Below are positions 4,569 to 30,625 of a stretch of DNA of 64,000 nucleotides, in pieces. Location: assembly GCA_902604305.1 (NCBI GenBank), contig CACKXS010000001.1:43107-107106 (forward strand), read 5' to 3'. The notes below the pieces were generated by a model, which saw only the letters and a program-made list of their open reading frames with translations, was not told where the DNA came from and ran no database searches. This DNA comes from an uncultured Pelagibacteraceae bacterium (lineage in GTDB: Bacteria; Pseudomonadota; Alphaproteobacteria; Pelagibacterales; Pelagibacteraceae). The translations under genes were made by a program, and so were the position numbers. How positions within the stretch are numbered: position 1 is the first letter of the stretch; each line of letters starts with the position of its first letter.

Positions 4569-6223
4569 AAGATGAACTAATATTTTGTCCACTTGGTGGA
4601 TCTGGTGAAATAGGCATGAATATGAATTTATATGCATATGGAAAACCTGATTCACAAAAATGGATCATAGTTGATGTTGGAGTTACATTTGCAGATGATA
4701 GTTTGCCAGGAATAGATTTAATATATGCAGACCCAGGTTTTATTGTTGATAAAAAAGATAATTTATTAGGTATTGTTTTAACTCATGCTCATGAGGATCA
4801 CATCGGAGCTATAACTTATGTGTGGAAAAAATTAAAATGTAAAATTTATGCAACACCATTTACTGCTGCTTTAGTTACTGAAAAATTTAAGGAAAAAAAA
4901 ATTGATATTATTCCTTATTTAAAAATTGTTAAATTAAATGGAACAATTGATCTTAATCCATTTAAAATAGAGTTCGTAACTTTAACTCACTCAATACTTG
5001 AACCGAATGGTTTAAAAATTGATACTCCAGCTGGAACTATTTTTCATACAGGAGATTGGAAAGTTGACCCTAATCCCTTGGTAGGTAAAAACATTAATCA
5101 AGAGAAGCTAAAAAAAATTGGAGATAGCGGTGTTTTGGCAATGATATGCGACTCAACAAATGTTTTTAGTATAGGGCGAGCTGGTTCGGAAGCTGACGTA
5201 AGGAAAAACATGCTTAATGTTATGTCACGACAAAAAAAAAAAATCTTAGTGACTTCTTTTGCTTCTAATGTTGCTAGAATGGAAACTGTATTTTTCTGTG
5301 CAGAGAAGATTGGTAGGCATATATCGTTAGTTGGTAGATCAATGCAAAGAATTTACAAAGCTGCTAGACAATGTGGCTATCTTCAAAATGTTATAGAACC
5401 TCTTGATCCAAGAGATACAAAAAATTTAGCAAGAGATAAAATTGTTTATCTCTGTACCGGTAGTCAAGGAGAGCCTATGGGAGCGCTAAACAGAATTTCA
5501 AATTTTACACATCCAGATGTATTTATTGAAAAAGATGATACAGTTATATTTTCATCCAAAATAATACCCGGTAATGTTAGAAAACATTATAATGTTCATA
5601 ACAAACTGTTAAAAGATGGTATAAATGTTATTACCGAAGAAACTGAGTTTGTTCATGTCTCTGGTCATCCAAATAGAGAAGATTTAAAAGATATGTATAA
5701 TTGGATTAAACCCAATTGTCTTATACCAGTACACGGTGAGCATAGACACATGAAAGAACAAATCAATTTTGCTCGTGAAATGAAAATTCCATCCCCAGTT
5801 CAAGTAGAAAATGGAGATATAGTGAAAATTTATCCAGGTAACAAACCATATGTTTATGATAAAGCACCAAATGGCAGATTGTGTGTTGATGGAGAAATTT
5901 CAATAGAAGAAGATTCAATTTTTATTAAAGAAAGAAAAAATTTGGCTAATAACGGATTTATTGACTTAACTCTGATTATTTCAAATAAAGGAGTTTTAAG
6001 TAGCAAACCTCTGTTAAACATTAAAGGTTTACCAATTTTTGAAAAAGATGAATTTTTTGATGGATTAGAAGAAGAAGTATTAAAACTTACCAAAACATTT
6101 TCTTTAAAAAATAGCAAACAATATGAAAATTTAATTGAAGGACTAAAAAAAACATGCAGAAAATATGCAAAAGAAAAAACTGGAAAAAAACCAATAACTA
6201 ATATTAATGTGATAAGAATATAA
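4565..6223 (+). CDS. rnj: ribonuclease J
   Basis: Metallo-beta-lactamase/beta-CASP motifs: GGSGEIGMN, THAHEDHIG, HTGDWK, SGHPNREDL, PVHGEHRH. Confidence 0.92.
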   Translation: MKDELIFCPLGGSGEIGMNMNLYAYGKPDSQKWIIVDVGVTFADDSLPGIDLIYADPGFIVDKKDNLLGIVLTHAHEDHIGAITYVWKKLKCKIYATPFTAALVTEKFKEKKIDIIPYLKIVKLNGTIDLNPFKIEFVTLTHSILEPNGLKIDTPAGTIFHTGDWKVDPNPLVGKNINQEKLKKIGDSGVLAMICDSTNVFSIGRAGSEADVRKNMLNVMSRQKKKILVTSFASNVARMETVFFCAEKIGRHISLVGRSMQRIYKAARQCGYLQNVIEPLDPRDTKNLARDKIVYLCTGSQGEPMGALNRISNFTHPDVFIEKDDTVIFSSKIIPGNVRKHYNVHNKLLKDGINVITEETEFVHVSGHPNREDLKDMYNWIKPNCLIPVHGEHRHMKEQINFAREMKIPSPVQVENGDIVKIYPGNKPYVYDKAPNGRLCVDGEISIEEDSIFIKERKNLANNGFIDLTLIISNKGVLSSKPLLNIKGLPIFEKDEFFDGLEEEVLKLTKTFSLKNSKQYENLIEGLKKTCRKYAKEKTGKKPITNINVIRI

Positions 6224-26818: not shown

Positions 26819-27610
26819 CTACAAAACTGAAAAAATAGAATTTTTATCGAGATTTTTTAAAAGTGATTCACCTATTAAAAAGACTTTAATATTTGTTTTA
26901 TTTTTTATTTCTAAAAGCTCAGCTTTATTTTTAATTCCACTCTCGGAAATTAATGGACTACTATGTTTTTCTACAACACTATAAATATCATAAGTTGTAT
27001 TTATTTCAGTCTTTAAAGTTTTGAGGTTTCTATTGTTAATACCAATTAAAGCATCATTAAATTTTAAAGCTCTATTAGCTTCTTCAACAGTATGAACCTC
27101 AACTATTACTGACATATTTAATTTTTTAGCTTCTTCATATAATGAAATAGCCACTTCGTCAGATACACCTGCTAATATAATTAGAATTGCATCAGCTCCA
27201 TAACTTCTTGCAAGATAAACTTGAAATTTATCAACAAAAAAATCTTTACATAATATTGGAAGATTAACTTTTTGTTTTATTTTACTTATATGTAGTAAAT
27301 TTCCTAAAAAAAAATCTTCTTCAGTTAAAACTGACAAACATGTTGCTTTATTTTTATTATATATATCTGCTATATTTACTGGGTTGTAATTTTCAATTAT
27401 TACACCAGCAGATGGACTGGCTTTTTTAATTTCTGCAATAATTGAAATTTTATTTTCATTTTTATTAATTTCTATTTTTTCTTTAAAATTTAAAAAAGAT
27501 TTATTGTTATCAATTTTTTCTTTTAGACTTTCAATTGATATTGATTTTTTTAACAAGTCTATCTTTTTTTTTTTATTTTTAATTATTCTGTCTAATATAT
27601 TTTCAGTCAC
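26819..27610 (-). CDS. trpC: indole-3-glycerol-phosphate synthase
   Basis: IAEIKKASPSAGVI; VLTEEDFFLGN; LCKDFFVDKFQVYLARSYGADAILII; GINNRNLKTL. Confidence 0.95.
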   Translation of the reverse strand: MTENILDRIIKNKKKKIDLLKKSISIESLKEKIDNNKSFLNFKEKIEINKNENKISIIAEIKKASPSAGVIIENYNPVNIADIYNKNKATCLSVLTEEDFFLGNLLHISKIKQKVNLPILCKDFFVDKFQVYLARSYGADAILIILAGVSDEVAISLYEEAKKLNMSVIVEVHTVEEANRALKFNDALIGINNRNLKTLKTEINTTYDIYSVVEKHSSPLISESGIKNKAELLEIKNKTNIKVFLIGESLLKNLDKNSIFSVL

Positions 27611-28595
27611 TTTGTATTTTTTCTAAATGTTTAAAAGATTTTCCAGATAAAATATGCTCTCTTGCATCAATATATGCATCTTTAAAATTTGAAAATTTTT
27701 CTGATACCATTAGTCCGGCAGCAGCATTTAAGCAAACTGCTTTAGAAAAATCATTATCTTCACCTTTAAATATATTAACCACTTTATCTGCATTGTATAT
27801 TGAATCGTCTCCGAGTAAATTATTCAAGTTTTCAGCATTAACTTCAAGATCATTAGGATCTATCACAATTTCACTAATTTTATTATCTTTTAATTGTATC
27901 ACATTACTTTTTGCATAAGGAGATATTTCATCCAAGCCATCTTCACTATTTACAATCCAAGCAAATTTAATTTTTAGATTTTTTAAACTATTTGCAAATA
28001 TTTTTAACAATTTTTTATGATATACACCAACAACCTGTCTTTCAACGAGTGCAGGACTACTCAGAGGACCAATCATATTAAATATAGTTCTTTTCCCTAT
28101 TTTTTTTCTAGTAGGTCCAACAAATTTCATTGCACTATGATAATTTGGTGCAAACATAAAACCAAAATTATTTGTATTTATTTGTTTTTCTATCTCAAAA
28201 GGTTCAAGATTAATTTTAATATTTAATGCCTCTAATACATCGCCAGATCCACATTTTGATGAAACAGCCTTATTTCCATGTTTAGCAATTTTAATACCCA
28301 TACTAGCTAATAAAAGGGCAGAAGCTGTTGAAATGTTTAGGGTATTCATTCCATCGCCACCTGTGCCACATGTATCAACACAATTTCCAACATTTACTCT
28401 TTTTGATTTTTCTCTTAAAACATAAACACCGCCAGCTATTTCATCGGATACTTCACCCTTTATCGAGAGTAGAGTAAGAAAATTAAATATTTCTTCTTCT
28501 GTAGCCTCTCCGTTCATTAATACATTGAAAGCTGACTTACTTTCTTCAAAAGATAAATCTTTTTTGTTTTTTAGCTTATCTATAAATTGCTTCAT
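27603..28595 (-). CDS. trpD: anthranilate phosphoribosyltransferase
   Basis: DTCGTGGDGMNTLNIST; AKHGNKAVSSKCGSGDVLE; GPTRKKIGKRTIFNMIGPLSSP. Confidence 0.95.
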   Translation of the reverse strand: MKQFIDKLKNKKDLSFEESKSAFNVLMNGEATEEEIFNFLTLLSIKGEVSDEIAGGVYVLREKSKRVNVGNCVDTCGTGGDGMNTLNISTASALLLASMGIKIAKHGNKAVSSKCGSGDVLEALNIKINLEPFEIEKQINTNNFGFMFAPNYHSAMKFVGPTRKKIGKRTIFNMIGPLSSPALVERQVVGVYHKKLLKIFANSLKNLKIKFAWIVNSEDGLDEISPYAKSNVIQLKDNKISEIVIDPNDLEVNAENLNNLLGDDSIYNADKVVNIFKGEDNDFSKAVCLNAAAGLMVSEKFSNFKDAYIDAREHILSGKSFKHLEKIQSD

Positions 28596-28597
28596 TA

Positions 28598-29167
28598 TTA
28601 TTTATAATTAATAAAATTTTTTAATATTTTTATTCCAATACTTGTTTTTATACTTTCTGGATGAAATTGAACTCCATGAATATTATATCTTTTATGCATA
28701 ATTCCCATTATTATACCATCATTTGTTAAAGCAGTTACTTCAAGATTTTTTGACAAAGTTTTTTTATCAATTATTAAACTGTGATATCTGGTTGCCTCAA
28801 AAGTTTTTGGAAGATTTTTTAAAATACCAGTCTTAAAAGATTTAATTTTACTTGTTTTACCATGCATTAATTTATTAGCTTGAATAATTTTAGATCCGAA
28901 AACTTCGCCTATTATTTGATGACCCAAGCAAACACCAAGTATTGGAATTTTATTATATAATTTCTTAACAATTCTTAAACAATTGCCAGACTGTCTTGGG
29001 TTACCAGGACCAGGTGATATAACTATTCTATTATATTTATTTTTAACTATCTCTTTTTCAGTTATTTTATCATTTCTATATACTTCAACTTTCACCTTTA
29101 GAGAAGATAGGTAATGATAAAGATTAAATGTGAAACTATCATAATTATCAATTAATAAAATTTTCAT
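28598..29167 (-). CDS. trpG: anthranilate synthase component II (glutamine amidotransferase)
   Basis: IDNYDSFTFNLYHYL; SPGPGNPRQSG; GVCLGHQ; GVQFHPES. Confidence 0.95.
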   Translation of the reverse strand: MKILLIDNYDSFTFNLYHYLSSLKVKVEVYRNDKITEKEIVKNKYNRIVISPGPGNPRQSGNCLRIVKKLYNKIPILGVCLGHQIIGEVFGSKIIQANKLMHGKTSKIKSFKTGILKNLPKTFEATRYHSLIIDKKTLSKNLEVTALTNDGIIMGIMHKRYNIHGVQFHPESIKTSIGIKILKNFINYK

Positions 29168-29169
29168 TT

Positions 29170-29937
29170 TTATTCTAAAGATTTTAATAAAGCTTTAGCT
29201 TTATTTACCGTTTCATTAAATTCATTTATTGGTTTACTATCTGCCACTATACCAGCGCCAGCTTGTACATAAAATTTTTTATTTTTAGAAACTGCAGTTC
29301 TTAAGGCTATACATGTATCAAAATCTCCATTGGCTGAAAAATATCCAATTCCACCTGCATATACTTTTCTTTTTGTATTTTCTAATTCATCAATTATCTC
29401 CATAGCTCTGATTTTTGGAGCACCAGAAACCGTACCAGCTGGAAATCCAGATAAAAGTGTATCAAATTTAGAGAATTTATTATTAAACTTACCAATTACG
29501 TTAGAAACAATATGCATAACATGAGAGTATTTTTCAATTACAAACTTTTCTGTAACTTTTACTGTATTAATTTTAGATACTTTACCCGTGTCATTTCTTC
29601 CAAGATCTAAAAGCATCAGATGTTCTGAAAGTTCTTTTTTATCTTTTAATAGGTCTCTTTCAAAATATTTATCTTCTTTTTTATTTTTTCCTCTAGGTCT
29701 GGTTCCTGCAATTGGTCGTATTGTAATATTATTGTTTCTCAATCTAACTAAAATTTCAGGACTTGCCCCAATAATTTGAAAATCTTCAAAATTAAAAAAA
29801 TACATAAAGGGTGAAGGGTTATTAATTCTAAGTTTTTTATATATTTCTATTGGATTTTTAGTAAGTTTAGATTCAAATCTTTGGCTTAAAACAACCTGAA
29901 AAATATCACCAATTTTAATGTATTTTTTAGCTTTCAT
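29170..29937 (-). CDS. trpE: anthranilate synthase component I, C-terminal part (frame continues upstream to about 30130)
   Basis: GDIFQVVLSQRF, PIAGTRPRGK, ELSEHLMLLDLGRND, SGFPAGTVSGAPKIRAMEIIDELE; +1 frame relative to the N-terminal ORF. Confidence 0.93.
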   Translation of the reverse strand: MKAKKYIKIGDIFQVVLSQRFESKLTKNPIEIYKKLRINNPSPFMYFFNFEDFQIIGASPEILVRLRNNNITIRPIAGTRPRGKNKKEDKYFERDLLKDKKELSEHLMLLDLGRNDTGKVSKINTVKVTEKFVIEKYSHVMHIVSNVIGKFNNKFSKFDTLLSGFPAGTVSGAPKIRAMEIIDELENTKRKVYAGGIGYFSANGDFDTCIALRTAVSKNKKFYVQAGAGIVADSKPINEFNETVNKAKALLKSLE

Positions 29938-30115
29938 AACATTTTGAATAAATTTATTTTTTGAAATATTTGATTTAACTACAATTTTCTCATTAAATTT
30001 AGGTTCAGTTATATTTGAGTTATAATTTGATATAAATATTAAGTTACTAATTTGATTTTCTATCGAATTAAATTTTTTTTTATAATTTCTTATTTTTTCA
30101 TCAGAAAAACAGTTT

Positions 30116-30625
30116 TCAATATAATAAATTTTTTTGTTTATAGTTGTCGTGAACTATTAATGTTCTGGGTCTTAAAATTCTTACATCTGGTATTTTAAGA
30201 TCGTCAGCACAAGAATTTGGTATTTTCTCTATATATCTTATTACATCGTAAGAGAAATATCCTGATAATAAAGAACTTATTGGTGGAAGACCTTTTGGAA
30301 TTTTGAATTTAAAACTTTCAATTAAATTTTCTATATTTTTTTTTGGATTACCTTTGATTTTAATCTTTTTATTTTCTTTATATATATAGCAATTGTTATT
30401 ATTAAATTCCCAGATTTTGTCAGGATTTCTTCCAAAAATTGTGTATCTTCCCTTAATTACTCCCTTTTCAACTGATTCAAAAACAAAACTATTTTTTTCA
30501 TTTAAAAAATTATTAATTAAATTATTAATTTCTCTTAGTCCATTTGTTTTTGCAGAATAATATATAATTTGATTTATATCTTTTTTGTGGTCTCTAGTAA
30601 ATTTTTTAAGATCAACATTTAACAT
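30116..30625 (-). CDS. trpE: anthranilate synthase component I, N-terminal part (terminated by frameshift)
   Basis: TrpE N-terminal features (FVFESVEKGVIKGRYTIFGRNPDKIWEF, LPPISSLLSGYFSYDVIRYIE); stop TGA at 30118-30116 just after an A7 run (coding strand). Confidence 0.9.
   Translation of the reverse strand: MLNVDLKKFTRDHKKDINQIIYYSAKTNGLREINNLINNFLNEKNSFVFESVEKGVIKGRYTIFGRNPDKIWEFNNNNCYIYKENKKIKIKGNPKKNIENLIESFKFKIPKGLPPISSLLSGYFSYDVIRYIEKIPNSCADDLKIPDVRILRPRTLIVHDNYKQKNLLY

Follow-up and report, generated by a model that had tools for sequence, protein, structure and literature searches.

Frames broken at poly-A runs are known to be rescued in AT-rich bacteria, and the slippage "pseudo-pseudogenes" described from such genomes (PMC1088944) resemble the trpE gene examined here in that the frame is broken at an A run, the genome is AT-rich and the downstream frame is intact. 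They have runs of 9, however, whereas the trpE case has an A7 run that is private to one draft genome and must lose one A for the frame to be restored. Slippage-prone bacterial runs are usually 9 or longer, and selection against slippage is evident at run length nine in many bacterial genomes (PMC1088944). In E. coli and Buchnera, slippage of the transcribing polymerase at A/T runs mostly inserts bases; among the Buchnera transcription errors, 151 of 157 insertions and 16 of 57 deletions were in homopolymers (PMC5574713). Another described source of broken frames is the single-base homopolymer indel in assemblies of single-cell amplified genomes (SAGs), and the accessible part of the report on the GORG-Tropics SAG workflow gives a benchmark of 3.0 indels per 100 kb, a figure that was obtained with cultured bacteria and is not split by homopolymer (PMC11247762).

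The window, i.e., the whole stretch of 64,000 nucleotides that was analysed, belongs to a SAR11 (Pelagibacteraceae) draft genome of 860,642 bases in 41 contigs, which is 72% complete; trpE lies on a contig of 107 kb with a GC content of 28%. The gene spans positions 29170–30625 on the minus strand and is read in two different frames. Its 5' part (30116–30625, an ORF of 169 aa) encodes the N-terminal domain of anthranilate synthase component I (PF04715 Anth_synt_I_N, E 2.3e-25), and its 3' part (29170–29937, an ORF of 255 aa) encodes the chorismate-binding domain (PF00425 Chorismate_bind, E 2.2e-87), with the frame break falling between the two domains. The assignment as trpE is based on this succession of domains, though in two frames, and on the presence directly downstream of trpG for the glutamine amidotransferase subunit (28598–29167, PF00117). 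On the same strand follow trpD for anthranilate phosphoribosyltransferase (27603–28595, PF00591 and PF02885) and trpC for indole-3-glycerol phosphate synthase (26819–27610, PF00218). The cluster agrees with the ordinary trpE-trpG-trpD-trpC cluster of SAR11 in its gene order, in its domains and in its neighbours (gltX and lexA lie downstream), and the sole difference is the extra A in trpE.

At the break, the coding (minus) strand reads ...AAC TAT AAA CAA AAA AAT TTA TTA TAT TGA, and the A7 run with the frame-breaking extra base (T7 on the plus strand) occupies 30129–30135, as found by direct reading and by a one-base gap in 19/19 aligned relatives. The trpE region has 1456 bases, i.e., 485 codons plus one base, so that it gives 484 aa and a stop codon when one base is left out. 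A preliminary description of this DNA had reported two trpE ORFs one base apart, a 484-aa protein on dropping one A, and intact trpG, trpD and trpC; the re-reading of the ORF frames and of the A7 run, the base count, and the full ORFs with Pfam domains for the three downstream genes bear out all of these. The A7 run itself is ordinary, because the contig's ORFs of 150 aa or more contain 358 A/T runs of at least 7; the broken frame is the unusual part.

We compared the site with those of related genomes. The two halves of trpE share one frame, uninterrupted by a stop, in 106/106 related loci, and in the DNA alignment of 19 of these loci every relative has one base fewer at the run. The nearest clade has CAA AAA ATT or close variants in frame, and the nearest relative (locus L032) has CAG AAA ATT; its trpE shows 92.7% DNA identity to ours, with the extra A as the single gap. 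When a 28-base sequence with the A7 run was searched in 399 genomes of the genus, allowing one mismatch, it was found in its own genome only and was absent from the other 398. The A7 allele is thus private to one assembly and absent in close relatives. The in-frame version of the site had no match in a scan of viral contigs. It had been proposed beforehand that A6 throughout the relatives would mark the A7 as an error, and in substance this is the situation, since sequences of the nearest clade show either A6 or an in-frame equivalent. Comparison with the nearest relative gave a dN of 0.028, a dS of 0.317 and a dN/dS of 0.089 by the Nei-Gojobori method (rank 53 of 74 contig genes; contig median 0.063). 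By these substitutions, trpE is under purifying selection with no lasting relaxation. It has not long been free of selection, and this ratio, together with the lack of any further gap to the nearest relative, argues against a decayed pseudogene; old decay is thereby excluded, while a very recent change is compatible with the values.

Single-base insertions of the same type were found elsewhere in the draft. The break in trpE is the only frameshift detected on its own 107-kb contig against the nearest relative genome G041. Contig C10 (L180) has, in a span of 4.6 kb, four more +1 A/T insertions located in A/T runs, at positions 5760 and 5824 (both in tolB, 64 bases apart), 6499 (a TolA-like gene beside tolB) and 10332 (the gene for 5-formyl-THF cyclo-ligase). 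The name TolA-like is our reading from place and sequence, without a family match. After the second shift, TolB is 99.5% identical to that of the relative over 375 aa. Conserved genes other than trpE thus have like indels in this assembly. The reverse comparison, of the draft with matching stretches of G041, revealed no frameshift in G041. Most of the other single-base gaps in the DNA alignment of contig C1 were rejected as frameshifts; they were compensating pairs in divergent stretches or were at ORF ends, and tblastn showed unbroken frames. C10 looks like an error-prone contig, and its four insertions were assumed to be artefacts. Five indels in about 145 kb correspond to 3.4 per 100 kb, a rate that counts only frame-breaking cases in ORFs, comes from a small sample with the C10 cases clustered, and has about 145 kb as its basis because only three of ten extra stretches overlapped the sampled stretches of G041.

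Pelagibacteraceae records provide the best trpE relatives; nearly all of these are AG- isolates, and several lack a MAG label. We take the AG- names to be a naming style of single-cell sequencing and the nearest relatives presumably to be SAGs, and we infer that the draft of the window is most likely a SAG too. The likeness to the homopolymer indels of SAG assemblies lies in the single-base type of the indel, in the rate and in the SAR11 relatives from such assemblies; the differences lie in the cultured bacteria and the unsplit indels of the benchmark and in the presumed method of our draft. The agreement of the draft's rate with the benchmark is suggestive only.

On these grounds we consider the extra A to be a technical single-base homopolymer insertion in the draft consensus and not biology, with a probability of about 0.86. 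This cause is the best supported because the allele is private, the relatives are intact, other decay is absent, the +1 A/T signature recurs and the count is close to the SAG indel rate; a counterpoint is that there is one such indel per 107 kb on the trpE contig, which is therefore not error-ridden. One A would have been added when a polymerase slipped in whole-genome amplification or in library preparation, and at a site represented by few independent copies the slip would have become fixed in the consensus; alternatively, the base could have come in through an assembly error. The cell's own trpE would then most likely be intact and encode an ordinary anthranilate synthase component I of 484 aa.

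The preliminary description had offered an assembly or sequencing indel, a recent inactivation and a slippage-tolerated allele side by side. The indel is strengthened by the evidence just given, and the inactivation is left as unlikely. The latter would mean that a replication slip added one A in the sequenced cell, so that trpE was lost very recently, leaving a tryptophan auxotroph with no further decay yet. Five of the five indels are +1 A/T, the pattern expected of slippage, and MutS (PF05192) and MutL (PF01119) were found in 0/21 SAR11 genomes, the draft and complete genomes included, while positive controls were found. Homopolymer slips should be commoner in a cell that lacks mismatch repair, and with both proteins absent a real slip is not as improbable here as it would usually be. 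A published study likewise describes mutS and mutL as lost from other SAR11 subclades (PMC12374537), in agreement with this absence. Also on the side of a real loss, the draft, though only 72% complete, has no second Chorismate_bind gene as a backup, whereas relatives usually have a second, more distant homologue, which judging by its distance is probably pabB. Against this, trpE is otherwise whole and conserved, the A7 allele occurs in no relative, and four like insertions in 4.6 kb of another contig, including two in a near-identical TolB, are hard to see as independent mutations of a living cell. Since selection keeps such alleles rare and the indel load of the draft is already in line with the technical rate, we put a real mutation at about one in ten. 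An extension of it, which we regard as quite improbable, is that the lack of MutS and MutL has raised in SAR11 a pool of homopolymer frameshift alleles that are short-lived, that A7 is a real member of this pool, and that single cells often have freshly broken biosynthetic genes and use tryptophan from seawater.

The slippage-tolerated allele, in which RNA polymerase drops one A in some transcripts or the ribosome makes a +1 shift and full-length TrpE is still made, has the known rescue at poly-A runs in its favour (PMC1088944), but the details of the locus make it very improbable. Restoration of the frame requires one A lost or two gained and a +1 insertion leads to the wrong frame, whereas slippage favours insertion (PMC5574713); the run of seven is also below the length of about nine at which slippage is usual (PMC1088944). 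Efficient slippage at A7 would moreover damage the ORFs that hold the many runs of this length or longer on the contig. The TGA stop is three codons beyond the run, away from any shift site, and no relative has this arrangement; with 106/106 relatives in one frame, no out-of-frame layout is conserved. The classic –1 heptamer (CAA AAA AAT read as A AAA AAT) was rejected as well, because a shift by –1 moves the reading into the third frame, where a stop soon follows; the preliminary description had rightly judged that it does not fit. The break between the two Pfam domains could also be taken to mean that TrpE is made as two separate chains, the second starting from the ATG at 29937. This is hardly credible: the nearest relative has Leu in place of this Met (QNVLKAKKY for QNVMKAKKY), most relatives align only from the residue after it, no Shine-Dalgarno-like sequence was seen by eye ahead of the ATG, and no relative has trpE split in a like manner. 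By this comparison the ATG is an incidental internal Met.

With the technical insertion as the preferred reading, a caution follows for the use of such drafts: a broken trpE in one SAR11 draft is no evidence of tryptophan auxotrophy, decay or recoding. Were the A7 allele real, the homopolymer frameshift rate in mismatch-repair-deficient SAR11 cells would become a testable question.

A wider trpE search gave matches in 262/399 genomes of the genus, about 150 of which were listed. In 16 other SAR11 drafts, trpE frames that are shorter were rejected as extra frameshifts because they are contig edges, and among the matches listed internal breaks were found only in G066 and G280. In G066 (L160, contig C10), the N-terminal part of trpE carries an independent frameshift, which lies at an A11 run and not at the A7 site. 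In G280 (L163, contig C21, near position 1054), the trpE sequence continues to about codon 220 and then runs into the lexA-gltX stretch in inverted orientation, a junction resembling an inverted chimera from multiple displacement amplification. The trpE damage in these two drafts looks technical too. Separately, the two parts of TrpE differ in their divergence from L032: the N-terminal part is more diverged, with 90% aa identity and a dN/dS of 0.115, and the C-terminal part has 99% aa identity over the last 255 aa and a dN/dS of 0.064 over 318 codons. This contrast recurs against other relatives.
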